Shown in pieces: positions 1 through 28,171 of a DNA stretch of 37,561 nt. This DNA is from Acidimicrobiales bacterium (GTDB lineage Bacteria; Actinomycetota; Acidimicrobiia; Acidimicrobiales; RAAP-2), in the NCBI GenBank assembly GCA_017883075.1, contig JADGOI010000009.1, positions 1 through 37,561 on the forward strand, in the 5' to 3' direction. The number at the start of each line of letters is the position of its first letter. Positions within the stretch are counted from its first letter, which is position 1. The notes beneath the pieces were generated by a model. It searched no databases and was not told the origin of the DNA. It saw only the letters and a list, made by a program, of their open reading frames with translations. Both the position numbers and the translations under genes were made by a program.

Positions 1-833
1 ACCTCGGCGCTGGCCCAACTCTCGAAGGCCGACGGCGTCACCGAACGGATACTGAAGAGCATCTCGGAGTGGTACAACCCGCAGAACTGGGTGCATTGGC
101 CGTCGTAGGTGCCGGTGTGCAGCACATTGAGGTCGAAGATGTTGGTGACACCGGGCTGGGCATAGCGGCTGAAGTTGAAGTCCCGGAGGTAGAACCCGTG
201 AACGGTGTCATTGGATAGCAGAGTGATCTGGACGGTCTCGCCGGCGGGCACGACCATCTGGGGCCCCTTGTTGTTCGGGCCGTTGGTGGTTTCGCCGACC
301 ACTCCGACGTTGAGACCGGTGTAGTCGAATCGCCAACCCCATTGGAAGGCGGTCACGGTGATGTCCACCACCGGGCGACCGCTGGAGGTGACAGTGGCGT
401 TGACCGGCTGGGTGGCGTCGACGTTGTTCTCGGTGAGAACCGTAAAGACGAACAGGACTCCGACGATGATGACCGGCACTGCCGTGTAGAGGAATTCGAT
501 GGGGAGGTTCTCGTGGAACTGTTTGGGCATCTCATCGGAGCGCCTGCGGTAGCGGACCACCGTATAGAGGATCAGCAGGCCAACGAGCCCGCCGATGATG
601 ATGCCGGTGGTCATCATCCCCGAGTAGAGCTTGAAGGTGTCGCTGCCTTGCTTGGTGGCTCCGGGGTCAGCGCCGTAGGTGGGATACATGTTGCATCCGG
701 CCAGGAGCAGGGGAGCACCGACGATCAGCGCGGTGATCCAGCCGCGGCGCATCCCGCTGACCCGGTGTTGGGGCGGGTCGGTGGGGTCGGCGGAGGGGGC
801 GTTCACAGCGATGACACTAGCGGGGGATGGCAT
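1..833 (-). CDS. coxB: Cytochrome c oxidase subunit II, 3' end cut by window edge
   Basis: CoxB carries the CuA centre that takes electrons from cytochrome c and passes them to subunit I of the aa3-type oxidase in the cytoplasmic membrane. The 277 visible residues show a lipoprotein-type signal ending in a lipobox LLLAGC (Cys47), two transmembrane helices (about 72-93 and 115-134), the aromatic patch FQWGWRFDY (163-171) used for electron entry, and the CuA ligands His212, Cys247, Cys251, His255 and Met258. The usual Glu between the two Cys is Gln here; it binds copper through its backbone, so function is probably kept. The start is uncertain: ATG at 833, GTG at 806 or ATG at 752 are all in frame, and 752 would give a compact lipoprotein signal. 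None has a clear ribosome site. Only the extreme C-terminus is missing. Confidence 0.93.
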   Translation of the reverse strand, partial: MPSPASVIAVNAPSADPTDPPQHRVSGMRRGWITALIVGAPLLLAGCNMYPTYGADPGATKQGSDTFKLYSGMMTTGIIIGGLVGLLILYTVVRYRRRSDEMPKQFHENLPIEFLYTAVPVIIVGVLFVFTVLTENNVDATQPVNATVTSSGRPVVDITVTAFQWGWRFDYTGLNVGVVGETTNGPNNKGPQMVVPAGETVQITLLSNDTVHGFYLRDFNFSRYAQPGVTNIFDLNVLHTGTYDGQCTQFCGLYHSEMLFSIRSVTPSAFESWASAE

Positions 834-920
834 GCAATTAGAAGTTGAGACGAGAGCGCGGTGGGCGATGGCATCAACCCAGGTCAGAGCGGTGGCCGTG
901 CCTGGGGGAGTCCGGGAGCC

Positions 921-2246
921 TCATACCTGCCCGTGGTGATGGCTGGCGGACTCCCGGGCCGCCCATGAGAACACCCCGCGGGCCATTGTCGAGGTGGCAG
1001 CCTCGGCCCGCGCCTCGAAGACCCGTTGTCGGATCCGCTGGATACCCGGGTCTGTCGGCTCCACCTGCCATGCCAGCTCGGCCAGATGCCCGGCCAACCG
1101 CAGGGCGGCGTCGTCGGGCCCACCGCCTTCGGCGCCCGTGGATGACTCCAGCAGGGCAAGCGCCCGGTCGGCCAGGGCGGAGGCCCCGCCGGCCAGCCCG
1201 GCCACCTCGCCGGCCAGGGCCCTCTCGGGGGCCGGCTGCAACGTGGCCGGGTTGCCGTCCCACCAGCCGCCGTAAAGCCTCCAGACGGTGCGCACGATGA
1301 ACTCGGGCTCGTCGTAGACGGGCTGCAGATACGGCCGCTCCATGAGCCGGGGTGGAGGGGTCACCGCGTGGATGATCTCGTTGAGCCTGGCCCCCTGATT
1401 CATCAAGGCGAGGGTCTGATCCACCAATGAGTCGAGTAGATCGGCGGTGTCTCCGAGGGCCTGACGGATCCGTTCCGCACCCATCACCGGAAATCCGTGG
1501 CCGGGGAGGAGGACGTCGGGGCCCCCGTCGGGGCCGTCGTAGAGGGCGAGCATCTCCCGGAGCGCCTGCGCCCACTCGCGTGGGTAGCGCTGCACCTTCT
1601 GCGGATTGCCGGCGTTGGGCGATGCCCAGATGAACAGGTCTCCGCAACACAGCACGTTCCGGTCGGGGAACCACGTCCAGGTGTGATCGTCGGTCTCACC
1701 CTTGGCATGATGGAGTTCGGCCCGCATGCCCCCCACCTCGAGGTTGAGGTGATCGCTATAGGTGCGGTCGGGGTAGCGGTACTCGGTCGGCCATTCGAGA
1801 TCCTCGATGTTGAACTGCCGACGGTTGATGATCCCGTTGTATCCGGCGGTCAGGATGTACCTGTCAAAACGCGCCGGTAGGGCTTCGTGGGCGATCACGG
1901 TGGGTTGGGACCAGCCGTTGGATTCGGACTCCGACTCCCACACCGGAACGCCGAAGACATGATCGATATGACCGTGGGAGTAGACGGCGGTATTGAGTCG
2001 GCTGTCCGACCACTCTCGCAGCGTCCGGTGGATCTCACCGGCCATCAGTGAGCTTCCGGTATCGACCAGAAACAGGCCCTCGTCGGTATCCAGTGCCGAC
2101 ACGTTGGCAAACGACGGGGTAAATGCCACCCCGTCGGCTACTTCGGCCAGGCCACCCCAGGTGTGCAAGGGGTGGGCCTCCGACGTGGATGTCTCACCTG
2201 TCCACAGGCGCTCGGCGATGTCGAGTACGTCAGGCCGTTTGGACAT
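921..2246 (-). CDS. Metallo-beta-lactamase-fold hydrolase, alkylsulfatase-like with dimerisation domain
   Basis: The 441-residue protein has the metallo-beta-lactamase zinc motif HGHIDH (His91, His93, Asp95, His96), followed by a second ligand block HHAKGETDDH and a GHGFP histidine. This is the arrangement of SdsA1/BDS1-type alkylsulfatases. The segment YGGWWDGNPATLQP is typical of the alkylsulfatase dimerisation domain. The C-terminal SCP2-like sterol-carrier domain of full-length SdsA1 (about 650 residues) is absent, so the natural substrate may not be a long-chain alkyl sulfate. No secretion signal is seen, which suggests a cytoplasmic enzyme. The ATG at 2246 is preceded by AGGGGA at good spacing. 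It lies 65 bp downstream of the small membrane protein gene, in the same direction. The family is secure; the substrate is not known. Confidence 0.85.
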   Translation of the reverse strand: MSKRPDVLDIAERLWTGETSTSEAHPLHTWGGLAEVADGVAFTPSFANVSALDTDEGLFLVDTGSSLMAGEIHRTLREWSDSRLNTAVYSHGHIDHVFGVPVWESESESNGWSQPTVIAHEALPARFDRYILTAGYNGIINRRQFNIEDLEWPTEYRYPDRTYSDHLNLEVGGMRAELHHAKGETDDHTWTWFPDRNVLCCGDLFIWASPNAGNPQKVQRYPREWAQALREMLALYDGPDGGPDVLLPGHGFPVMGAERIRQALGDTADLLDSLVDQTLALMNQGARLNEIIHAVTPPPRLMERPYLQPVYDEPEFIVRTVWRLYGGWWDGNPATLQPAPERALAGEVAGLAGGASALADRALALLESSTGAEGGGPDDAALRLAGHLAELAWQVEPTDPGIQRIRQRVFEARAEAATSTMARGVFSWAARESASHHHGQV

Positions 2247-2311
2247 TGGATTCCCCTATTCACTTCGGATGCAATGTACCGGTCGAAGCCGAGGTTGGCG
2301 AGATCCGGGGA

Positions 2312-3028
2312 TCAGCCTGGTTTGGATCGGGGCCCATCGGGTCGGGATGCGGCCTTGCCCGCCAGGCGCCCGGCACTGCGGATGGTCCGCTTCACCTGAG
2401 CTTTGGCGATGGGACCGTGTTTGGCCGTCGACCTGGATGCCGCCGATGTGGCTGCACCTGCAGCCCGCCCCGCCCTCCGGGCGGCCGAGCTGACACCCTC
2501 CTCGGCGGGAGGGCGGGACCTGCCGGTAGAAGGGGACGCATTCCGACCGCGCCGTTCAGGCGCCGACGGATCGGCCACCCTCGCCCTGGCGTTGATCACC
2601 GCGCCGGACCCTCCGACGCCGTTCGGATTGGCCGGTCGTGGATCGGTGTTGACCAGGGTGGCCAGGCGGATGATCCCGATGGCGGCGACCTCGAGGATGA
2701 TGATCCCCTCGATGTCGGGACGGATCGTGGACACCACCGGGGACACGGCCACGATGACCGCGACGGCCGAGACCAGGATCACGTGGAGTTTGCGACCACT
2801 GATCCGGAGGATGCCGAGTGGGCCATCGGCAGTCAGGGCCAAGGCGGCGAAGACGGCACCGGCGACCGCCAGAACTCCACCTCGGCTGACGTGAAGAGAG
2901 AGATAGGCCAGAGTCATCACCGAGAGGATCTCGGTGGCTTGGAGAATCCAGAACGGAGCCACCCGCTGGGAGCGCCGGTCCGCCACACCGACACCACGGC
3001 CGACACCGTTCCCGCCGTGAGCGCTCAT
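2312..3028 (-). CDS. Small integral membrane protein with basic Ala/Arg-rich tail, function unknown
   Basis: The 238-residue protein has about four hydrophobic segments in its first 130 residues (roughly 25-45, 50-68, 80-100 and 108-126). A long, polar, positively charged C-terminal tail follows, rich in Ala, Arg, Ser and Pro. I do not recognise a family. It starts 19 bp after the tatA stop, on the same strand, so the two are probably co-transcribed. A link to Tat export or to the membrane oxidase downstream is possible but is only inferred from position. The tail resembles disordered, nucleic-acid- or membrane-surface-binding tails of actinobacterial membrane proteins. The hydrophobic pattern and codon use support it being a real gene. 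Confidence 0.7.
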   Translation of the reverse strand: MSAHGGNGVGRGVGVADRRSQRVAPFWILQATEILSVMTLAYLSLHVSRGGVLAVAGAVFAALALTADGPLGILRISGRKLHVILVSAVAVIVAVSPVVSTIRPDIEGIIILEVAAIGIIRLATLVNTDPRPANPNGVGGSGAVINARARVADPSAPERRGRNASPSTGRSRPPAEEGVSSAARRAGRAAGAATSAASRSTAKHGPIAKAQVKRTIRSAGRLAGKAASRPDGPRSKPG

Positions 3029-3047
3029 ACCCGCAGCGTTGCCAGCG

Positions 3048-3353
3048 TTACGACGGGGTCCCGGAGGAACCGTCGCCCGGGGGCTGTGCCGGCTGGGCCA
3101 CCGGAGTCACCACCGGCGCTGGAGCCGGAGCTACCGGGGCTGGAGCCGGGGCCGGGATAGCCGCGGCGGCCTGCACACCTTTGTCATCGGCCGAGGCGCC
3201 CTCATCCAGGCCCTTCTTGAACTCCTTCTGGGCGGAGCCCAGCGAGCGGGCCAGCTTGGGAATTTGGGTGCTCCCGAAGAGAACGAGCACGACGACAATC
3301 AAGACGATGATGCCGTCAACACCAAAGATTTCTGCGGATGGAGCGAAATGCAT
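3048..3353 (-). CDS. tatA: Sec-independent protein translocase subunit TatA
   Basis: TatA oligomers form the membrane passage for folded twin-arginine substrates selected by TatBC. The 101-residue product has one N-terminal transmembrane helix (about 14-30), the hinge FGSTQIPKLARSLG and an amphipathic helix ending KEFKKGL, the classic TatA/E architecture. The usual FGxxKLP hinge is altered to FGSTQIP. A Pro/Ala-rich C-terminal tail of about 40 residues, with repeated PAPAP units, follows and is probably disordered. Position and hinge fit TatA better than the longer TatB. An excellent ribosome site (AGGAGGTG, six bases before ATG) supports the start. tatC is not in this window. The neighbours are membrane proteins and, farther on, CoxB; respiratory proteins are common Tat clients. 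Confidence 0.9.
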   Translation of the reverse strand: MHFAPSAEIFGVDGIIVLIVVVLVLFGSTQIPKLARSLGSAQKEFKKGLDEGASADDKGVQAAAAIPAPAPAPVAPAPAPVVTPVAQPAQPPGDGSSGTPS

Positions 3354-3450
3354 GGTTACACCTCCTACGTCGGCCTCTACAGAGGTTAGACCCGTCTACG
3401 GACAACCTGTACTTCGGCGCCGACCACCAGGCCGGATGACCGCGGATCGA

Positions 3451-3891
3451 TCAACCGGCCAGGAACACCCCCAGGACCAGCGCGGCGATCGAGGCGATTC
3501 CCCCGATCGATCCCCACACGGCCAATCCCCGCTTCGAGGTGGCCCGTTGGTGCAGGAACACTCCGACCCCGGCAACGACCACCACGGTGATCTTGATCAT
3601 GAGCACCGACTTCCAGGCCGACGGCGCATCTTTGAAGGTAAACGCCGAGATGTTCCAGAATCCAGTGATGACCAGTACGGCATACGCCGGCCACAGCAGC
3701 CAGCCCAGCGCCCGGGCCACCTTCTTGGAAGCGTCCTCTCCCAAACTGCGCACGGTCGGGAGGAGCCCGGCCACGGTGAACTGACCACCCACCCAGATGG
3801 TGGCGGCCAGGACATGGAGGGTCAGCCGGATGCCGTTGACGCTGGGGCTGAGCGCCGGTACTTCGCCGACCAGGTGGGTGATCACGTCCAT
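3451..3891 (-). CDS. CopD-like four-helix membrane protein
   Basis: The 146-residue protein has four predicted membrane helices (about 20-40, 62-82, 95-112 and 125-144). The first contains HVLAATIWVGGQF, a histidine-plus-WVGG motif typical of the CopD domain of copper-resistance membrane proteins and related haem/copper-handling proteins. Families with this fold are implicated in copper uptake or haem-protein assembly. With a cytochrome oxidase gene a few kilobases downstream on the same strand, a part in copper supply to the oxidase is an attractive guess, but only a guess. The ATG at 3891 has AAGGT just upstream and follows the crotonase stop by nine bases, so the two genes are likely read on one transcript. 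Confidence 0.7.
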   Translation of the reverse strand: MDVITHLVGEVPALSPSVNGIRLTLHVLAATIWVGGQFTVAGLLPTVRSLGEDASKKVARALGWLLWPAYAVLVITGFWNISAFTFKDAPSAWKSVLMIKITVVVVAGVGVFLHQRATSKRGLAVWGSIGGIASIAALVLGVFLAG

Positions 3892-3900
3892 TGACCTTTT

Positions 3901-4674
3901 CTACCTACCGGACCAGTTTGGTTTCCGCTTTTCGGCGAAGGCCACCGGGCCCTCCATGGCATCGGCGGAGCCGAAGACCTCGGGTACCGCGGCGTTGTTG
4001 ATCTCCCAACCCTGCGCCTCGGGAAGTTCACCGGCTTGCTTCATCACCCGCTTGGACGTCCGTACTGCCAATGGGGCGTTCTCCGCGATGGTGGCGGCAA
4101 GCGCCAATGCCTCTTCCATCAGCTTGTCGGCCGGGACCACCCGGTTGATGAGGCCCAGGGCCAGGGCCCGTTGGGCGTCGATGGGCTCGCCGGTCATGGC
4201 GAGCTCGAGGGCGATGGCCGGCGGGATCCGCTTGGGCAGGCGGATGAGACCACCGGCAGCGGCCATGAGGCCTCGCTTGACCTCGGGGATACCGAACTTC
4301 GCCCCCTCGACGGCCACCACCAGGTCGCAGGACAGCATGATCTCGCACCCACCGGCCAGAGCCGATCCATTGACGGCGGCGATGAGCGGCTTGGCGAAGT
4401 CACGTTGGGCAATGCCGGCGAAGCCGCCCTTGGCACCCATGATGTCCCCCGCCTCTCCGGCGGTGAAGGCCTTGAGGTCCATGCCGGCGCTGAACGCCTT
4501 GTCGCCGCTCCCGGTCACGATGACGACCCAACAGTCGTCGTCGGCCTCGAGCTCGTCGAAGGCGGCGGAGAATCCCCGGGACACCGCGCCATTGATGGAA
4601 TTTCGGGCATCAGGCCGGTTGATCGTCAGGATTTCGATGTGACCCTGTCGCTCACGGAGCAGTTCATCAGACAC
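3901..4674 (-). CDS. Enoyl-CoA hydratase/isomerase (crotonase) family protein
   Basis: Crotonases stabilise enolate intermediates of CoA thioesters; the commonest role is adding water to trans-2-enoyl-CoA in beta-oxidation. The 257-residue product has the N-terminal NRPDARNS motif, the oxyanion-hole segment FSAGMDLK (Ala63-Gly64, with Gly109 as partner) and both catalytic glutamates of true hydratases, Glu111 (AGGCE) and Glu131 (FGIPE). It is therefore more likely a hydratase than a one-Glu isomerase or dehalogenase. I chose the GTG at 4674 because AAGGAAGGGA lies just upstream; an in-frame extension to 4743 would run into the preceding gene. It follows the thiolase-like gene by 22 bp and probably shares its transcript, so the two may act on the same acyl-CoA. 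Confidence 0.92.
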   Translation of the reverse strand: MSDELLRERQGHIEILTINRPDARNSINGAVSRGFSAAFDELEADDDCWVVIVTGSGDKAFSAGMDLKAFTAGEAGDIMGAKGGFAGIAQRDFAKPLIAAVNGSALAGGCEIMLSCDLVVAVEGAKFGIPEVKRGLMAAAGGLIRLPKRIPPAIALELAMTGEPIDAQRALALGLINRVVPADKLMEEALALAATIAENAPLAVRTSKRVMKQAGELPEAQGWEINNAAVPEVFGSADAMEGPVAFAEKRKPNWSGR

Positions 4675-4696
4675 GTTGTTGTCCCTTCCTTGGATC

Positions 4697-6256
4697 TCAG
4701 CGTTCGGGCAGACGGTAGCGCGGCGGCTCGCCCTCCACGACAATTGCCGTGCCGACCATCCCCGGAGTGTCGCCCCGACCGACCTCGGCGACGACCTCGG
4801 CGTCGGCCGGCGAGGCCGCTACGTGCCGCCCGTCGGGAAGCCGGGCGATGACCGGCGCCCCGGTTGGGGTTCCCCCGTGGTCACGGACCACCGTGACGGC
4901 CAGCACGGTGGCGGTTGTCGTGTCGGGCACCTGAAGGGCCATCTCCATGGCGCCGGCATCGATGCGCTGTTGGTCTGCGGAGGTGTCCCCCAGCTGGAAT
5001 CCGCCTGGGGGCGGGGTGGCGCCGTAGAGTCCGAGCGCGTGTTTGGTGATGAACCAGCCCACTCCGGTGGCCAGGCCCAACCGAGGTCGGTCCCCGGCGG
5101 GGCCGGGACCGGCCTGGCGGAGGAGGCTGGTGACCGAGGCAATCCCGTGGGTGGTGTAGTTGTTCCCGGGCCCACCGAAGTAGGGGAGGCCACCGGTGGA
5201 CGTAAGGCCCCGACTGTCGTCGAGGTTGAGTCCGAGGGCTTCGGCGGCCAGCTCTACCGCCGAGGGGAAGCACGAGTAGATGTCGAGGACCTCGATGTCA
5301 TCGATCCCGATCCGGCCCAATCCGTTGGCGGGGCCGGAGGCAATGTTGGCCGCCTCGAACAGCGCCCGGCCGGCGGCGGCGATGGCCGGAGACCTCCCCG
5401 GGTCGGGCCGGGAGGCGGGAAACCGGACATCGACCGTCCCGGAGCCCGACCAGATGAACACCGACCGGTCGGCTACCCCGGCTCGTCGGGCCGCCGCCAG
5501 CGAGCACACCACCAGCGCTGCACCCTGATCGGAACCGAGGAAGGCGGTCATCCGCTTGGTATAGGGCTCGCACACGATCCGGTTGTCCGGTGAGGGAGTA
5601 GCGATGTCCGCGGCCGTGTATTCGACCGGGAACCACGCGAACGGATTGGTCGACGCCACCCGGCTGAACGGGGCGAACAACTCACCGATGGCCTGGCGGT
5701 GTTGAACGGCGGTATGGCCTGCCCGGGCTGCCACCACGCTTTCGAACAGCGGATAGACGTGGAGCGGGGCCAGCAAGCCAATGGCAGATTCCGCCGGCCC
5801 TACGCCCGGCAGGTCATCGCCCACTGCCGGGTCGGGGGCCAAACTGGTGTCCCCGCTGTCCCGGGGTCGACCCAGCTTGTGCCGCAGGCGAGACGACCGG
5901 ATTGCCTCGGCCCCGGCGATCAACGTCGCGGACAAGGTGCCGGCGGTGATGTCGGTGGCCGCTCGGTTCACCAGCCATTGAGGGGAGTTGCCTCCGATGG
6001 TGGTCACCTCGCGCACCGGAGGCGACATGCCCAGGGCGCGGGCCAGTTCGGATGCCGGTGCAGGGCCGGTGCGCGTCATGATGGCGACCACGGAGAGCCT
6101 GTCGATCCGATGGCGGAGATCGGGCACGTCAGCGAGCGCCGCCTCGCAGGCCCGGGCCATCAGGTCGATGGGGGTGACCGGGTCACCACGTTCGATGGAT
6201 TCCCCCGATGCGATGACCACCGGAATCCGTTCGGCGTCCTGCTCGGAGATGCTCAT
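4697..6256 (-). CDS. Thiolase-like protein (TLP1/SCP-x type) with extra C-terminal domain
   Basis: The 519-residue protein has the two-repeat thiolase fold followed by about 90 residues resembling the extra C-terminal domain of mycobacterial thiolase-like protein type 1. The canonical thiolase catalytic residues are not in place. Where the nucleophilic Cys belongs the sequence reads GGNSPQ (88-93, Ser91); the GHP histidine loop reads FGGPGNNYTTHG; the final CxG loop reads ATGVGWFITKHALG. The YSCFPSAVE segment fits the NEAF/HDCF loop. It may bind acyl-CoA without doing classical thiolysis, as proposed for mycobacterial relatives. I chose ATG 6256 because upstream codons overlap the divergent promoter region and look non-coding. 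It is the first gene of the leftward run and is followed by a crotonase. Confidence 0.85.
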   Translation of the reverse strand: MSISEQDAERIPVVIASGESIERGDPVTPIDLMARACEAALADVPDLRHRIDRLSVVAIMTRTGPAPASELARALGMSPPVREVTTIGGNSPQWLVNRAATDITAGTLSATLIAGAEAIRSSRLRHKLGRPRDSGDTSLAPDPAVGDDLPGVGPAESAIGLLAPLHVYPLFESVVAARAGHTAVQHRQAIGELFAPFSRVASTNPFAWFPVEYTAADIATPSPDNRIVCEPYTKRMTAFLGSDQGAALVVCSLAAARRAGVADRSVFIWSGSGTVDVRFPASRPDPGRSPAIAAAGRALFEAANIASGPANGLGRIGIDDIEVLDIYSCFPSAVELAAEALGLNLDDSRGLTSTGGLPYFGGPGNNYTTHGIASVTSLLRQAGPGPAGDRPRLGLATGVGWFITKHALGLYGATPPPGGFQLGDTSADQQRIDAGAMEMALQVPDTTTATVLAVTVVRDHGGTPTGAPVIARLPDGRHVAASPADAEVVAEVGRGDTPGMVGTAIVVEGEPPRYRLPER

Positions 6257-6407
6257 CGGCTCGGTCGGTGACCGGTGGTAATGATGCGGTGGGTGCGTGT
6301 CATGATCGGACGCGGAAGCTATCACTGTGGCCGGACCACCGGCTCTTCGGCCTTTTCGTGCCAGCGGCTCTGTGCGGACGGGGACGAGAAGCTGAGAGGC
6401 TGGGCCG

Positions 6408-7925
6408 GTGGCTGTGGACTTCGTACCCCCCTCTCCTCGCACCGGCACGCCCTCCGGCGGGATCCTTCCCGACGGCTTTCTCTTTGGGGTGGCCACTGCC
6501 GGTTTTCAGATCGAGGGTGGCTTCAACGGTCCGGGCGAGCCCGCCAACAACTGGCTTCGATGGGAGCAGGATGGCCGGGTGGAGCCCTCGGGGAACGCCG
6601 TCGGGTTCTGGGAGCGACCCGAAGAGGCGCTCGATCGGACCGCCGATCTCGGGTGCGACAGCTTTCGTCTTGGCCTCGAGTGGGCCCGGGTGGAGCCAAG
6701 GGAGGGAGATATCGACGAAGGAGCCTTGGCCAAGTACGGCGAGATCATCGACGGGTGCATCGAACGCGGGTTGAAGCCATTGGTGACCCTTCATCACTTC
6801 ACCCACCCGTCGTGGCTGGGAGAAGACTTCTGGCTCCGGCCAGATTCGCCGGATCGTTACCTGGCCTGGGTGGAGTTGGCACTGTCCCGGCTGGCGACCA
6901 AGGTCCGACTGTGGGTGACGATCAACGAGATCAATGTTCTGGCATTCGGATCGTGGCTACTCGGAATATTCCCGCCCGGCCGCCTGATGGCGTTCGGCGA
7001 TGCCGCAATCGCCACTGACAATTTGTTGACAGGGCACGTGCTCGCCTACCAAGCCATCCACCGGGCATCTCCTGGAGCCGTAGTGACCACGAACAATGCC
7101 TGCGTCAGCGGCTACGAGTTTGATCGGCTGATGACTGACGTCTTGATGGCGCGAAGCTTGGGGGTCAACCGAGACGAGCTCGATGACTGGATCGACGGAC
7201 GGCGGGCTGCGCACTATGGGTGGCTTCCGGCATCGGGCCCGGGGGAACGTGCCTTCCGTCGCTTGAGTGCCATGACGTCAGCCTTTGGCTCGGCGGGGCG
7301 GCGTCATCCGTTGCGAGGGCACAACGGAACTAGCGCGGGGATCCCGCGGCGGGCGGTCGATGCCGTCTACGCCAGTACCCATGAGCGGACCCTCGACGTG
7401 GTCGGTCTCGACTACTACGACCCCATGGTGGCCCGCCACTTCCGAGCCCCTGGCCACCGAACCGCCGGTGGCCGAGGATGGCACCCGACTCGAGCGCTCT
7501 GGGACGACGTAGTCGACCCGACCGGTCTCACCCGATGGCTTGGTGCCCAACAATCGGTGACCCCCGAGGCGCCCCTTTGGGTGGTGGAGAACGGACTGTG
7601 CAACCGGGTCCGGAACGGGCATTCCTATCCGCGCCTCGACGGGTGGACTCGCTCCGGTTACCTCAGGGAGAATCTCAACGCGGTGGTGTCCGCCATCGAT
7701 GGTGGCGTACCGGTGGCCGGATATTGGCACTGGTCGTTGGTCGACAACTATGAGTGGGGTTCCTATCAACCTCGGTTCGGTCTCTACGGAGTGGACCGAC
7801 ACCGGGGCGGGCGCGGATTCCGCTGGCTCGACACCGACTCTTTGGGAGACGATGCCGGTGCGACCTATCGGAGAATCATGTCGGGTCTCCGAGCCGGGGA
7901 CAGGTCGGTACTCGACGGCGAATGA
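6408..7925 (+). CDS. Glycoside hydrolase family 1 protein (beta-glucosidase-like)
   Basis: GH1 enzymes hydrolyse beta-linked glucosides, galactosides and similar sugars with retention of configuration. The 505-residue product has the N-terminal FLFGVATAGFQIEGG block, the general acid/base in TINEIN (Glu174, the TFNEP motif) and the nucleophile in VVENGL (Glu394, the TENG motif). Near the C-terminus, YWHWSLVDNYEW is the sugar-binding aglycone motif. No signal peptide is present, so it should act in the cytoplasm on imported sugars or glycosylated metabolites. The TINEIN variant departs from the classic Pro after Glu. The GTG at 6408, with GAGAG upstream, is the likely start; a second in-frame GTG follows at 6414. 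It is divergent from the thiolase-like gene, with about 150 bp of shared promoter region. Confidence 0.93.
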   Translation: MAVDFVPPSPRTGTPSGGILPDGFLFGVATAGFQIEGGFNGPGEPANNWLRWEQDGRVEPSGNAVGFWERPEEALDRTADLGCDSFRLGLEWARVEPREGDIDEGALAKYGEIIDGCIERGLKPLVTLHHFTHPSWLGEDFWLRPDSPDRYLAWVELALSRLATKVRLWVTINEINVLAFGSWLLGIFPPGRLMAFGDAAIATDNLLTGHVLAYQAIHRASPGAVVTTNNACVSGYEFDRLMTDVLMARSLGVNRDELDDWIDGRRAAHYGWLPASGPGERAFRRLSAMTSAFGSAGRRHPLRGHNGTSAGIPRRAVDAVYASTHERTLDVVGLDYYDPMVARHFRAPGHRTAGGRGWHPTRALWDDVVDPTGLTRWLGAQQSVTPEAPLWVVENGLCNRVRNGHSYPRLDGWTRSGYLRENLNAVVSAIDGGVPVAGYWHWSLVDNYEWGSYQPRFGLYGVDRHRGGRGFRWLDTDSLGDDAGATYRRIMSGLRAGDRSVLDGE

Positions 7926-8169
7926 ACCGAGTAACGCCGACGACCTGCACTAATGTGTCCCCAGCACCCTCAAACAGGGTTGTCGTCATCGGCCCCCGAG
8001 CCTGTGTGGGACTGATGGGGTCGCGAGAAGGACAGGTCCTCGGAGCGGCCCGTATGGGGGAAACTTGGCAGAACGCGGATCGTGGGGCGTCGCCGGTGAT
8101 GGCCGAGGCGATGCCATCGGAGTCCCCGGTGAGCGGTGAACCCGCACGTTGCGAAACGGCGTTGCTTCG

Positions 8170-11100
8170 ATGGTGACTGTCTCCGAACCCCGTAGCGGTG
8201 CATCGCACCGGCTCCATAGTTGGGAGAATGTCCCCAGCCGGGCAGCGTTTGGCGTCGTCGCTGCATTGGTGCTGGTGGCCTCGTATGTGGGAGTGAACGC
8301 CCTTCACCCCTTGGGCCCCGGTGTGGTGCTGAGGGGAATCGTCACCGGCGGCCTGGGCTCGATGGTGGCAATGGGCCTGGTGCTGATCTATCGGTCAGCG
8401 CGCATCATCAACTTCTCCCAACAGATGATCGGTGGTGTGGCAGCCACCCTGGTGCTGCTTCTGGTGTCCTCCCAGGGCTACCCGTATCTGGTGGCGGTCG
8501 CCATTGGAGTTGCCGTGGCCATCTTCATCGGATGGTTCACGGAGCTGACGATCATCCGGCGGTTCGCCACCGCGCCTCGATTGGTCCTGACCGCGGTGAC
8601 CGTCGGCATCTATCAGCTTCTCGGCGCCGCCGAGTTGGGCCTTCCCAAGCTGTTCACAACCAGTTCGAATACCACCGGTATCCATGTACCGTTCTCGTTG
8701 ACCTTTCACCTCCGTCCGTTCACGTTCACCGGAGATGACGTGGTGGCGCTGGTGGTGGTTCCGATCGTGCTGATCTCTCTCAGTCTCTTCTTCGCCCGCA
8801 CCGACTACGGCGTGGCCATCCGGGGTGCGGCGGACTTCCCGGAACGGACGCGTTTGCTGGGGATCCCGGTCCGTCATCTCAGCCGGATCACTTGGATGGT
8901 GGCCGCCGGCCTGTCGGGGATCGGGGTGATTCTGGCCGCGCCCAAAGGGATGGGGGGCCTCACCCTCGGAAACGTCTCCACCCCGGCGACACTGCTGCTC
9001 CCGTTGGCTGCCGCGGTGCTGGCGGGTATGGACTCCTTCCCGATGGCGGTGGCCTGGTCGGTGGTACTCGGGGTCGTCAACCAGGCGGTGTTCTCGATCT
9101 GGCAACGGGCCAGTTACGAGGACGTTGCCCAGTTCATCGTGATTATCATCGGGTTGCTGGTCATTCGTTCCCGGACCACCGGTGTCGATGAGCAGGGCTC
9201 TGGTGAGTTCATCTCGGTTCGAGAGATTGCGGGGCTCCCTGCCCACCTGGCCAAACTTCGAGGAGTACGGATCGCCAGGTGGACCTCGTACACGGTCCTG
9301 TTGGTGGGAGCCGCGATGATCCCTCTCACGTTTGTCCAGTCCAAGCAGCTACTGGCGGCCAACGTGGCCATCTATGCGGTGATCGGCATTTCCATCGTGG
9401 TGCTGACCGGCTGGGCCGGACAGATCAGCTTGGGGCAGTTCGCTTTCGTCGGGATCGGGGCCGCCACTTCGGGAGCACTGCTCGTCCATCAGCACGTTGG
9501 ATTTCTGGTGGCCACATTGGCTGCTGCAGCGATCGGTGCCGTGGTGGCGGTGGTGATCGGCCTGCCCGCGCTGCGGGTCCCGGGCCTCTACCTGGCCGTT
9601 GCCACCTTGGCATTCGCGGTGCCGGTGTCCTCCTATCTGCTTTCGTCCTCGACATTTCGCTCAGAGAACCCGGCGTTCGTCGCCAGGCCGTTCCTGATCG
9701 GCCATGTTGACCTCGCGTCTCAAGCGACCTTCTATGAAGTTTGTTTGGCTTTCTTGGTGGTAACGGCGGTGGTCACCCGCATCCTTCGCAAGGGGAGTAT
9801 CGGCCGGAGTGCCATCGCTGTTCGCGAGAATCCGAAGACCGCCTCCGCCTACGGCATCAGTCCATTGAGGAACAAACTTGTGGTGTTCGTCATTTCGGGC
9901 GCCATCGCCGGTGTGGCCGGCAGTCTCTACGAGGTCGGCATGGAGGGGATCAAATCGGGAGGCATACCTGCCGACCTTTCCATCACGGTTTTCGTCATGG
10001 TGGTGATCGGCGGTCTCGGTTCGATCACCGGTGCCGTGTTGGGTGCCGTCTACGTTCAGGCGGCCCAGTACTTTCTGCCCGAGGGCCTTCGATTCGTGGC
10101 CATGGGAGCCGGTCTCATCATTCTGCTCATGGTGCTGCCGGACGGTCTGGGAGGTCTGTTATTCCGCCTCCGCGACTTGGCGCTGGCAGGGATCGAGGTC
10201 CGGCAGGGCCGGCGGACCTCGGCGGGGCTCCGAGGGCCCAGCTCCGGTGGCGACGATGCGGCTGATGGAGCGTTGGCCCAGGATGGCGCCGGCCCCACCG
10301 TCCACGCCGCCGCTCTTCGCATCAAGGCAATCGAGAGCCGTGAAGACGAACATCCATTGGTCTCCCCTGGTGGTCCCGCGCCCGACGCCGGGCCGCCTGA
10401 CAACGAGCGCGCCATCGTCGAGCTCAATTCCGTCGATGCCGGCTATTCCCGGCATGCCAAGGTGCTCCGGGACGTGGACATCGGTATTGCCCAGGGTGAG
10501 ATCGTGGCGCTCCTCGGCACCAATGGGGCTGGCAAGACGACGGTATTGCGCGTCGTTGCCGGTTTCTTGCCGCCGACCAAGGGGACTGTCTGCTTCATTG
10601 GCAGGGATGTTGAGGACCTGGGCGTGCGCGACCGGGTGCAGGCCGGGTTGATAACACTGCTGGGAGGTCGAGGGGCATTCCATTCCCTGACCGTCAAGGA
10701 GAATCTGCGGCTGGCCACATGGATGGCCCGACGCCACCACAAGGATCCGGTCTTTGCCGCCGCCGCCACGGAGCGGGTGTTGACTCTCTTCCCGGTGCTG
10801 GGGGAGAGGCTCGAACAGCTGGCAGGTTCGCTCTCGGTCGGTGAACAACAGATGCTGGTCCTGGCTCAGGCTCTCCTGTGTCGCCCCAAGTTGCTGATGA
10901 TCGACGAGCTCTCCCTGGGCCTGTCTCCATCGGTGGTGGTCCAGATGCTCGACGTGATCCGGGCACTGGCCGCCAGCGGTGTCACGGTGGTGATCGTCGA
11001 ACAGTCGGTGAACGTGGCTACTGCAATATCGGGCCGCGCCATCTTCATGGAGCGAGGAAGGGTCCGATTCTCAGGCCCCACTCCCGACCTGTCCCAGCAA

Positions 11101-12009
11101 CCTCATCTTCTGCGCTCGGTGTTCGTCCATGCGGCCCAACGGGCTGCGAGGCGAACGCAGGGGACCACTTCGGCGACCGTCGCCGCTGACCGGGTGGCTC
11201 CGGCACTTGCCGTGACGGATGTGTCCAAGCGCTTCGGCAAACTCGCCGTTCTCCGGAATCTCAGTCTCCAGATTGGAAGCGGCGAGATTCTCGGAATCAT
11301 CGGAGCGAACGGCGCGGGCAAGACCACGCTGTTTGACGTGTGCTCGGGGTTCGTTGCCCCTGACCGGGGAACGGTGGCCATGCATGGCCACGACATCACC
11401 GGTCTTTCGCCTGCCCGCCGTGCCGACCGCGGCCTGGGACGGGTATTCCAGAACGGGCGGCTGTTTCCGTCGTTGTCGGTGATCGAGACTTTGACCACGT
11501 CGCTCGAACAGTCAGCTCGGGTTCGAGATCCACGGCCAACGGAAACCGGCCGTACCTTGCCTCCTGCCTCGCGGAAGGAAGTGCTCTCACGGGCCGAAGA
11601 GGTGATCGTCGAGATGGGCCTGGAAAGGTTCCGGGACACATTGATCTTCGAACTGTCATCGGGGACCCGTCGCGTCGTCGAACTGGCATGCGCGGTGGCA
11701 CATCACCCCAAGGTGCTGCTCTTGGATGAACCGACGGCCGGGATATCCCAGTACGAAGGAGAAGCCCTGGGCGAACTCCTGCTCGGGATCCGCGATCAGA
11801 CGGGTGCCACCTTTGTCATCATTGAGCATGACGTTCCCCTGGTGTCGTCGATCGCCGATCGGCTGGTCTGCATCCACCTGGGCGAGGTGATCTCAGAAGG
11901 CAGTACGACGGAGGTATTGAACGACTCAGCGGTGGTCACCGCATACATGGGAACAGATGAGGCGGTCGCACGCCTTACCGGGGGAGTCCCTGCGACGACC
12001 TCGTCATAG
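8170..12009 (+). CDS. Four-domain fused branched-chain amino-acid-type ABC transporter (LivH-LivM-LivF-LivG)
   Basis: This 1279-residue chain contains a whole Liv-type import machine. Residues about 20-340 are a LivH-like permease (RIINFSQQMIGG near 78-89). About 390-670 are a LivM-like permease (GWAGQISLGQFAFVGIGA near 414). A Pro/Gly/Ala-rich linker spans about 675-745. NBD1 is LivF-like (Walker A GTNGAGKTT 783-791, signature LSVGE 888-892, Asp912-Glu913). NBD2 is LivG-like (Walker A GANGAGKTT 1045-1053, signature LSSGT 1162-1166, Asp1186-Glu1187). All four parts have intact motifs, so it may work as a single-chain transporter. These importers carry branched-chain amino acids, amides, urea or small acids. 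No substrate-binding protein gene is adjacent. ATG 8170 is preferred over a TTG at 8149; an in-frame stop lies just upstream of the TTG. The ribosome site is weak. Confidence 0.93.
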   Translation: MVTVSEPRSGASHRLHSWENVPSRAAFGVVAALVLVASYVGVNALHPLGPGVVLRGIVTGGLGSMVAMGLVLIYRSARIINFSQQMIGGVAATLVLLLVSSQGYPYLVAVAIGVAVAIFIGWFTELTIIRRFATAPRLVLTAVTVGIYQLLGAAELGLPKLFTTSSNTTGIHVPFSLTFHLRPFTFTGDDVVALVVVPIVLISLSLFFARTDYGVAIRGAADFPERTRLLGIPVRHLSRITWMVAAGLSGIGVILAAPKGMGGLTLGNVSTPATLLLPLAAAVLAGMDSFPMAVAWSVVLGVVNQAVFSIWQRASYEDVAQFIVIIIGLLVIRSRTTGVDEQGSGEFISVREIAGLPAHLAKLRGVRIARWTSYTVLLVGAAMIPLTFVQSKQLLAANVAIYAVIGISIVVLTGWAGQISLGQFAFVGIGAATSGALLVHQHVGFLVATLAAAAIGAVVAVVIGLPALRVPGLYLAVATLAFAVPVSSYLLSSSTFRSENPAFVARPFLIGHVDLASQATFYEVCLAFLVVTAVVTRILRKGSIGRSAIAVRENPKTASAYGISPLRNKLVVFVISGAIAGVAGSLYEVGMEGIKSGGIPADLSITVFVMVVIGGLGSITGAVLGAVYVQAAQYFLPEGLRFVAMGAGLIILLMVLPDGLGGLLFRLRDLALAGIEVRQGRRTSAGLRGPSSGGDDAADGALAQDGAGPTVHAAALRIKAIESREDEHPLVSPGGPAPDAGPPDNERAIVELNSVDAGYSRHAKVLRDVDIGIAQGEIVALLGTNGAGKTTVLRVVAGFLPPTKGTVCFIGRDVEDLGVRDRVQAGLITLLGGRGAFHSLTVKENLRLATWMARRHHKDPVFAAAATERVLTLFPVLGERLEQLAGSLSVGEQQMLVLAQALLCRPKLLMIDELSLGLSPSVVVQMLDVIRALAASGVTVVIVEQSVNVATAISGRAIFMERGRVRFSGPTPDLSQQPHLLRSVFVHAAQRAARRTQGTTSATVAADRVAPALAVTDVSKRFGKLAVLRNLSLQIGSGEILGIIGANGAGKTTLFDVCSGFVAPDRGTVAMHGHDITGLSPARRADRGLGRVFQNGRLFPSLSVIETLTTSLEQSARVRDPRPTETGRTLPPASRKEVLSRAEEVIVEMGLERFRDTLIFELSSGTRRVVELACAVAHHPKVLLLDEPTAGISQYEGEALGELLLGIRDQTGATFVIIEHDVPLVSSIADRLVCIHLGEVISEGSTTEVLNDSAVVTAYMGTDEAVARLTGGVPATTSS

Positions 12010-26298: not shown

Positions 26299-27117
26299 TC
26301 AGGTGATGTCGCGTCGGGTGAGCATCATCGACCCGATGAGGGCGAAGACCAGTCCGTACGCCAACATCAACAGGGTGCCCTGCCACCAGTTGAATAGGAA
26401 CAGCGACAGATCCCCGCGATTCCGGGTGAGGTTGGCAGCGGCCTCGGCCGCGCCGGTTGGGACCCACTTGGCCGCACCGTGCACCAGGCTGACCAGAATC
26501 CCCTCCAGGATGATGAACCACCCCAGTGTCACCACGATGGCAGCCACCTGGTTGGTGAGGAGCGATCCGATGCCGACACCCAGGATGGCGAACAGGATGA
26601 AGACGAGGATCATCCCGGGGGCCACCGCCGGCACCTGATGGAGGAGGGCGGAGAATGATCCTCCCAGCCCGACCAAGGTGAGACCCCCGCCGACGAGGCT
26701 GGAGACCAACATGATGATGGCCAGGCCGGCCCCGCCGATGGCGGCCATGAGCAACTTTCCGGCCACCATGATCGGGCGCACCGGCGTGATGAGAAACGCG
26801 GTGGTGACCGTCTTGTGGCGGAATTCGGTGGTGATGCACAACACGCCGAGCAACAGCGCGAACAGGTAGCCTTCGAAGCCCGACCCCACCAGGTTCCTGA
26901 GCTGTTGGGTTGTATGGGGATAGCTGACGACGGAGGTGGTGACAGAGGAGCCACTGTTGCCACCGCCTCCCCCGCCAAAACCACCGCCGTTGGAATCGTG
27001 GTTCAGGTAGATGACCAGAATCAGCAGGCCGTTGATGAGGAGAGCGATGCCGGCCAGCACCCACGGCACCGCGGTGGTGCGGAGCTTCAGCCACTCGGAG
27101 CGGACGATGGCAATCAC
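26299..27117 (-). CDS. ABC-2 type transporter permease
   Basis: The 272-residue membrane protein begins with SEWLKLRTTAVPW, the amphipathic entry helix typical of ABC-2 (bacitracin/multidrug-type) permeases. It then has about six membrane helices, with TTEFRHKTVTTAFLITPVRP (about 100-120) as the conserved cytoplasmic coupling segment. A Gly/Asn/Ser-rich loop rich in GGGG lies in the first periplasmic region and looks disordered. The GTG start at 27117 overlaps the ATPase stop (GTGA) and has GGAGGT five bases upstream, so translation is coupled. With the ATPase it should form an exporter; substrate unknown. The open frame extends to 27600 on the same strand, but that part overlaps the ATPase gene and is not coding. 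Confidence 0.9.
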   Translation of the reverse strand: MIAIVRSEWLKLRTTAVPWVLAGIALLINGLLILVIYLNHDSNGGGFGGGGGGNSGSSVTTSVVSYPHTTQQLRNLVGSGFEGYLFALLLGVLCITTEFRHKTVTTAFLITPVRPIMVAGKLLMAAIGGAGLAIIMLVSSLVGGGLTLVGLGGSFSALLHQVPAVAPGMILVFILFAILGVGIGSLLTNQVAAIVVTLGWFIILEGILVSLVHGAAKWVPTGAAEAAANLTRNRGDLSLFLFNWWQGTLLMLAYGLVFALIGSMMLTRRDIT

Positions 27118-28100
27118 GAGACACCTCCGGGCATCGGCGTGGGCTTCGCATGTGGCGTTCCGGGCCCGGCGCCGGCGCCGGCGGTGGCCCCGGGAAAGGT
27201 GGCCGCGAATCCCTGGGTCAGGTTGAGGAAGACATCTTCGAGACTGCCACGGTCGTGGATCAGTTCGTAGACGACTATCTGGTTTTGGGCGAGGACCGGA
27301 CCCAGCCATTCGGGGGTGGCACCGTCGATGGCGATGGTGTCGGGGGCGGTGGGTCGGAAGCCAACCTGGGTGGCAGTCAGGATCTCGGTAAGCCGGCCGA
27401 TCTCGGGGGACCGCACCCGCATGCCGTTGGAGGTGCCTGCCCGGCCGGCCAGATCGGCCAGGGTGGTCTGAAGCACCAACCGACCCTCGGACACGATCAC
27501 CACATCGTCGACCGTCTCTTCCATTTCGGACAGGAGGTGGGAGGAGACGAGAATGGATCGACCGATGGACGCCTGATAGCGGATGAAGGTGCGGAGCCAT
27601 TGGATGCCCTGGGGATCGAGACCATTGGCCGGCTCGTCGAGGATGAGGATCTCGGGGTCGCCCAGCAGGGCAGTGGCCAGCTGCAACCGTTGCCGCATGC
27701 CCAGGGAGAACTTGCCCACCCGGCGGCGGGCGACATCGGAAAGGCCGACCAACTCGAGAGTCTCGTCGACCCGGGACAGGGGGATGCCGGCTCCGATCGC
27801 CACCATTTTGAGGTGGTCCTCCGCCCGGCGGGAGGGATGGAAGCTGGTGGCCTCGAGCACAGCGCCCACGTGGTGGGTCGGCTTGTGGAGCTTTTCGTAG
27901 GTGCGACCGCCGAACGTGGCCGTCCCGCTGGTGACCGCCACCAAACCGAGGAGCATGCGCAAGGTGGTGGTCTTCCCGGATCCGTTGGGACCCAGAAATC
28001 CGGTCACCCGACCGCTATCCACCTCAAAACTCAGGTTCTCGACGGCATGGACGCTGCCGAAGTGTTTGGTGAGACCGTGGACTTCGATAGCCGAAGGCAT
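27114..28100 (-). CDS. ABC transporter ATP-binding protein (ABC-2 exporter)
   Basis: The 328-residue protein has Walker A GPNGSGKTT (37-45), the signature FSLGMRQRLQLA (131-142), Walker B ILILDEP (151-157) and the H-loop SSHLLSEM. The Q-loop position reads VGAVLEATSFHP with Glu instead of Gln, as in bacitracin/antibiotic-type exporters such as BcrA. After the NBD comes a regulatory C-terminal domain and a Gly/Ala/Pro-rich tail. It powers the permease encoded next (four-base overlap) and heads the operon that ends in the PLP lyase. I chose the ATG at 28100 because the conserved domain (IEVHGLTKHFG) begins four residues later; no good ribosome site is seen. Confidence 0.92.
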   Translation of the reverse strand: MPSAIEVHGLTKHFGSVHAVENLSFEVDSGRVTGFLGPNGSGKTTTLRMLLGLVAVTSGTATFGGRTYEKLHKPTHHVGAVLEATSFHPSRRAEDHLKMVAIGAGIPLSRVDETLELVGLSDVARRRVGKFSLGMRQRLQLATALLGDPEILILDEPANGLDPQGIQWLRTFIRYQASIGRSILVSSHLLSEMEETVDDVVIVSEGRLVLQTTLADLAGRAGTSNGMRVRSPEIGRLTEILTATQVGFRPTAPDTIAIDGATPEWLGPVLAQNQIVVYELIHDRGSLEDVFLNLTQGFAATFPGATAGAGAGPGTPHAKPTPMPGGVS

Positions 28101-28171
28101 CCCAGACGATACCGTGGCTGAGGGGCCGGGTAGAGCCACCCCCGGATCTGCGGATGGCGAATCGATGTGTG

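Follow-up and report, generated by a model that had tools for sequence, protein, structure and literature searches.

A one-chain Liv-type ABC importer core that has outlived its own binding-protein gene in an Acidimicrobiales lineage

A single open reading frame in the window (the whole 37,561-nt stretch of contig JADGOI010000009.1 that was analysed) encodes LivH-, LivM-, LivF- and LivG-like domains on one chain (HMFG), a complete Liv-type (type I) importer core that most likely (probability about 0.6) still imports with the help of a binding protein encoded elsewhere. The ancestral operon ran from a GH1 glycosidase through a membrane-anchored binding protein to HMFG. Synteny shows that the binding-protein gene was deleted in the ancestor of the window species and two sister species, after which HMFG changed fast while being kept under purifying selection. 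HMFG would now accept either S44, an orphan LivJ-like lipoprotein seen in these three species but in no other genome searched, or its counterpart from a paralogous four-domain system, HMFG2. An earlier reading of this DNA from sequence only had concentrated on the fusion, and merely touched on what we regard as the more interesting fact: an importer core outlived its own binding protein.

The stop-free translation of 8170–12009 (+) is 1279 aa long (ORF analysis); the mechanical ORF begins at TTG 8149, while ATG 8170 is the start conserved in the sister species. The gene and its parts are:
8170–12009, +: HMFG gene, LivH-LivM-LivF-LivG-like domains on one chain of 1279 aa, stop codon within the coordinates (Pfam, NCBIfam, same-frame homologues)
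8242–9189, +: LivH-like transmembrane domain, residues 25–340 (PF02653; 94–95% identity to sisters; helical in the AlphaFold2 model)
9322–10185, +: LivM-like transmembrane domain, residues 385–672 (PF02653, E 7e-34, six-frame search)
10186–10404, +: TMD–NBD linker, residues 673–745 (AlphaFold2 pLDDT, dN/dS)
10405–11109, +: NBD1, LivF/UrtE-like, residues 746–980 (Pfam, NCBIfam; best solved relative 1ji0)
11194–11964, +: NBD2, LivG/UrtD-like, residues 1009–1265 (Pfam, NCBIfam)

Pfam recognises BPD_transp_2 twice and ABC_tran twice on the chain. The two PF02653 stretches (169 bits, cut-off 26.8) supply the pair of permeases that characterises Liv/HAAT importers, and NCBIfam supplies one ATPase of each type, UrtE/LivF-like at residues 751–976 and then UrtD/LivG-like at 1012–1262; the LivF and LivG equivalog cut-offs were not reached by the chain, and the UrtE and LptB scores above cut-off are sums over both NBDs, hence no test. 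ORF analysis, Pfam and NCBIfam agree with the sequence-only reading that LivH, LivM, LivF and LivG follow one another in a single frame, and the NCBIfam placement that the LivF-like ATPase precedes the LivG-like one. The four separate core subunits of Liv/HAAT importers are here replaced by one open frame.

Full-length homologues in the same frame are present in independent assemblies of the two sister species (G001, 91% identity; G002, 92%) and of a more distant relative (G004, 70%), and 8170–12009 is a true four-domain Liv-type fusion. The nearest relatives are known from MAGs only, which would leave room for separate genes joined by sequencing or assembly frameshifts; this was ruled out with near certainty, since independent assemblies carry the same open frame at 39–93% identity and all four domains are under purifying selection.

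Domain calls on fetched DNA identified H-M-F-G in one frame at about 45 loci, mostly from the Acidimicrobiales. With the permease half as query, this taxonomic order frequently yields open frames of at least 1200 aa, and HMFG chains were also found in another class of the phylum (G585) and another order of the same class. The rarity implied by the sequence-only reading was therefore not borne out. That reading would have yielded to an architecture both common and already characterised: common it is, but no description of a four-domain Liv fusion was found in the open-access literature, and an inventory for Brucella, in the part available, mentions only ABC-membrane and ABC-ABC fusions (PMC2821768). 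Beyond the phylum, the scope was a scan for close relatives in genome contigs and plasmids; spread of HMFG by plasmids was rejected, no PLSDB record covering 80% of the chain.

Partial Liv fusions are common in the class, and intermediates among the loci comprise an H-M fusion with separate genes, an H-M fusion with a fused F-G, and an H-M-G fusion preceded by F. The last arrangement, a separate LivF-like gene and then an H-M-G fusion, was seen in L126, L130, L131 and L139, four rows that form one supported clade. In L157 (G039), H-M-F share a frame but G is read in a second frame that overlaps it, corresponding to a frameshifted or newly split HMFG gene. On a FastTree tree of the permease part, which includes some truncated loci (‘HMF?’), the H-M label changes at least six times, so that fusion (or splitting) apparently occurred more than once; we claim no number of events.

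The nucleotide-binding halves are not equivalent, as is evident from their motifs:
10516–10542, +: NBD1 Walker A, GTNGAGKTT (motif census)
10831–10845, +: NBD1 ABC signature, LSVGE (G to V here and in two sister species; SGGE or SGGQ in other relatives)
10987–11013, +: NBD1 H-loop position, VVIVEQSVN (Gln in place of His, family-wide)
11302–11328, +: NBD2 Walker A, GANGAGKTT (motif census)
11653–11667, +: NBD2 signature, LSSGT, degenerate (LSTGT in nearly all relatives)
11815–11841, +: NBD2 H-loop, VIIEHDVPL (His present)

The sequence-only reading had described every Walker A, signature and Walker B motif as intact. This holds for Walker A and Walker B, present in both NBDs together with the Glu after Walker B, but not for the signatures (LSVGE in NBD1, LSSGT in NBD2), and NBD1 of the window also has neither the Q-loop Gln nor the H-loop His. 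Across 38 family members, NBD1 is without the Q-loop Gln (GGRG and variants) and without the H-loop His (EQS and variants), and NBD2 has both but carries the signature LSTGT; the change from LSGGE to LSVGE in NBD1 is seen in the window and the two sister species. If the halves combine as in any NBD dimer, following the general ABC mechanism, NBD2 Walker A/B, Q- and H-loops with the NBD1 signature would form a canonical ATP site, and NBD1 Walker A/B, lacking the Q- and H-loop residues, with the NBD2 LSSGT signature a degenerate one, so that asymmetric hydrolysis would be expected. The solved LivF-like protein 1ji0 also aligns with a ‘VEQ’ type H-loop, and part of the asymmetry is thus common to separate LivF proteins. 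Val is found at the same signature position in active ABCC transporters, which makes LSVGE compatible with activity.

An AlphaFold2 model of residues 24–1223, calculated with 34 relatives and without the first 23 and last 56 residues, has a pLDDT of 79 and a pTM of 0.79 and says nothing on partners. Low-confidence stretches lie at about residues 335–350, 682–707 and 997–1007. For the region that the sequence-only reading had singled out for structure prediction (about residues 675–745), the outcome was a predicted helix (about 709–727) flanked by disorder at about 682–707 and 728–734; dN/dS in this TMD–NBD linker is about 0.8–1.0 among the three sisters. The two TMDs and two NBDs, usually separate subunits, would assemble from one polypeptide via flexible linkers. 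No PDB chain was a good match to the whole model in a structure search, and the permease half had no sequence match to a solved structure up to E = 1.

Upstream of HMFG the window contains:
4697–6496, −: thiolase-like/acetyl-CoA acetyltransferase-like protein (PRK08257 group), divergent from GH1; conserved neighbour
6408–7925, +: GH1-family beta-glycosidase (PF00232; BGL model below its cut-off), by synteny the first gene of the ancestral GH1-SBP-HMFG order (SBP, substrate-binding protein)
7926–8169, no strand: 244-bp gap, site of the binding-protein gene in relatives; conserved in two sister species

The thiolase-like gene belongs to a conserved minus-strand cluster (3–6496) divergent from GH1, which also encodes COX2-like, alkyl-sulfatase-type MBL, TatA-like and enoyl-CoA hydratase proteins and two unassigned small proteins (2312–3028 and 3389–3904); parts of it are syntenic with GH1-SBP-HMFG across several genera. 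Elsewhere in the window, a 433-aa ORF (26299–27600, −), flanked by a decarboxylase/aminotransferase-like gene and an ABC ATPase (27114–28139), has no Pfam or NCBIfam match.

The missing neighbour had been noted correctly: profile searches and tblastn with the binding proteins of ten relatives found no substrate-binding protein gene in the window. A residual gene in the 244-bp gap was considered and rejected, no remnant being detected there. A cognate LivJ/LivK-type binding protein encoded with the core, as in Liv/HAAT importers, is thus lacking in the window, whereas relatives have one: binding proteins of one family, about 550–600 aa long, were found in the same fetched stretch at 32 of 37 HMFG loci, nearly always directly adjoining the transporter. 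In a model of the window genome's paralogue, a disordered linker connects a membrane helix to a LivJ/UrtA-like domain. Judged by these sequence comparisons, the absence is a lineage-specific deletion and not a property of the architecture.

In G004, two presumably adjacent contigs, one ending and the other beginning inside the binding-protein gene, together read GH1-SBP-HMFG, an order also found in G060, G058, G460, G215 and G063. The blocks of G058 (L144) and G460 (L145) are very similar (HMFG branches 0.03–0.05) despite coming from different families (f1, f45), reflecting either recent operon transfer or bin contamination. The window genome and G002 have HMFG as the next gene after GH1, with about 244 bp between the two. 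This GH1-HMFG junction is shared by G001, but GH1 is broken, and the former operon is eroding there: a segment of L170 (about 7978–8500) matches window 6408–7925 with an internal deletion of about 970 bp. By parsimony, the gap shared by the three sisters points to one deletion in their common ancestor; by synteny, what was lost is precisely the binding-protein gene that separated GH1 from the transporter.

G003 and G004 both encode the cognate binding protein. G003 (87% complete) carries GH1 and parts of this protein on L256, L210 and L255; no HMFG orthologue was found in that genome, nor is there one in the roughly 8 kb downstream of its binding-protein fragment. In the window genome, G001 and G002, all MAGs that are 4–6% incomplete, the cognate protein is absent and only a paralogue with 34–35% identity was found, which belongs to the second four-domain system. 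It is very unlikely that the cognate protein still exists, moved out of the operon into unassembled parts of these genomes: at 94–96% completeness there is some room for it, but three independent assemblies with the same GH1-HMFG junction are without it, and each of them would have had to miss it separately.

The loss coincides with a change of rate in the transporter. The stem of the three sisters measures 0.30 changes per site in the protein tree versus 0.11 for the G004 branch, and HMFG evolved 2–3 times faster than in the sister lineage (Tajima counts with the three nearest outgroups, 136–151 versus 52–55; chi2 37–45). No significant rate difference was detected by the same test for the thiolase, ECH and COX2 neighbours, and chi2 for GH1 was at most 6.4, with one outgroup only. 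The increase affects all four HMFG domains, most strongly LivH, and 14 nearly invariant positions changed in all three sisters versus one in G004, among them the NBD1 signature change from LSGGE to LSVGE and, in the D-loop region of NBD2, R to Y. Three species do not suffice to distinguish adaptive change along the stem from a relaxation of constraint; LSVGE and the 13 other near-invariant changes could mean weaker coupling. Pairwise dN/dS for HMFG among the three sisters is 0.20–0.27 (0.11–0.27 in the four domains, about 0.5 to above 1 in the linkers), and no stops or frameshifts were found in the three species. As the sisters diverged after the deletion, this value measures selection without the cognate binding protein, and by this measure HMFG is still maintained by purifying selection.

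The sequence-only reading had proposed looking for orphan LivJ/LivK-type proteins, and several orphan or paralogous LivJ-type binding proteins were indeed found in these genomes, orphans in the window genome among them. S44 (contig C59), a lipoprotein-like, LivJ-type PF13458 protein, occurs in the window genome (G000), G001 and G002 (98% and 93% in the two sisters) and was not detected in another 20 genomes searched, G003 and G004 among them. The 8–10 kb fetched on each side of S44 in G001 and G002 yielded no Liv permease; in G001 it is preceded by an ABC ATPase and two further ORFs, which look like an Ssu/Tau-type transporter. S44 is a candidate partner of HMFG, and its match with the loss concerns one clade, i.e. 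one event. SBP2, the binding protein of HMFG2, would be a second candidate. HMFG2, about 40% identical and equipped with a membrane-anchored binding protein of its own, was found in both sisters and the window genome (L161:8047–11510, L162:1–2334, L172, L173), and in the latter is apparently split over contigs C86 and C212.

How HMFG works without its own binding protein can be read in several ways. Tentatively, the fast evolution of every domain, the ABC signature included, may have rewired this one-chain type I importer so that it either works with an orphan binding protein not its own or transports without any. The second of these, in which HMFG would have become, for example, a low-affinity importer, a valve or an exporter driven by an asymmetric ATPase, appears unlikely: it would fit the deletion of the cognate protein, the faster evolution of the four domains with LivH foremost, the altered signature and D-loop residues and the retained purifying selection, but type I importers generally need a binding protein to trigger hydrolysis, and the orphan or paralogous LivJ-type proteins of these genomes could serve. 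Also unlikely is a locus on its way to a pseudogene, with the binding protein lost, GH1 truncated in G001 and HMFG shedding near-invariant residues until the transporter no longer works. The GH1 internal deletion in G001 may indicate a decaying locus, and the 14 changed positions (one in G004) and a stem about three times longer point the same way. Against this, HMFG dN/dS after the shared deletion is 0.20–0.27 while its own linkers drift at about 1, none of the three species has a stop or frameshift, and both NBDs retain their Walker A and Walker B motifs and the Glu that follows Walker B. Import through a binding protein encoded elsewhere remains the preferred reading.

A fully fused core fixes the stoichiometry at 1:1:1:1 and allows each ATP site to be mutated singly in one gene. 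The three core-only species, set against G004 with both components, form a natural experiment that asks whether the binding protein of a type I importer can be exchanged or dispensed with, and the HM, HM+FG, HMG and HMFG stages within one class show how importers of four genes are condensed into a single one. As to substrate, the link with GH1 weakly hints that it was ancestrally a glycoside, and nothing in the surroundings points to Leu, Ile or Val.

Among known systems, LivHMGF-J/K (HAAT, the E. coli branched-chain amino acid importer) shares with HMFG two BPD_transp_2 TMDs and LivF- and LivG-type NBDs, and HMFG relatives carry a LivJ-fold binding protein (fold search with the paralogue's protein). 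Unlike that system, HMFG has its core on one chain in the order H-M-F-G and no binding-protein gene at the window locus, and a predicted helix plus disordered linker anchors the binding protein of the paralogue in the membrane. Separate-gene Liv systems of the same genome (contigs C83, C87, C135 and C67) have LivH and LivM fused in one gene, followed by LivG and LivF genes, and a binding protein lies next to three of them, the exception being C67, which is at a contig end; these systems differ from HMFG in their separate NBDs, in the order G then F and in permeases with about 26–43% identity in matched parts. The urea transporter UrtABCDE is not matched: UrtD scores below cut-off, UrtE exceeds it only as a sum over two NBDs, and no binding protein lies beside the gene. 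Eukaryotic full transporters (P-glycoprotein, ABCB4) also have four core domains on one chain, but the likeness in layout suggested by the sequence-only reading breaks down, as these are TMD-NBD-TMD-NBD and HMFG is TMD-TMD-NBD-NBD; they also have an exporter fold and no binding protein, and the whole-model TM-score is about 0.3. Mycobacterium tuberculosis OppABCD/DppABCD (PDB 8j5q, 8wdb), peptide importers whose TMDs, unlike those of HMFG, are separate subunits, likewise carry both NBDs on one chain and are among the best structural matches to the HMFG model.
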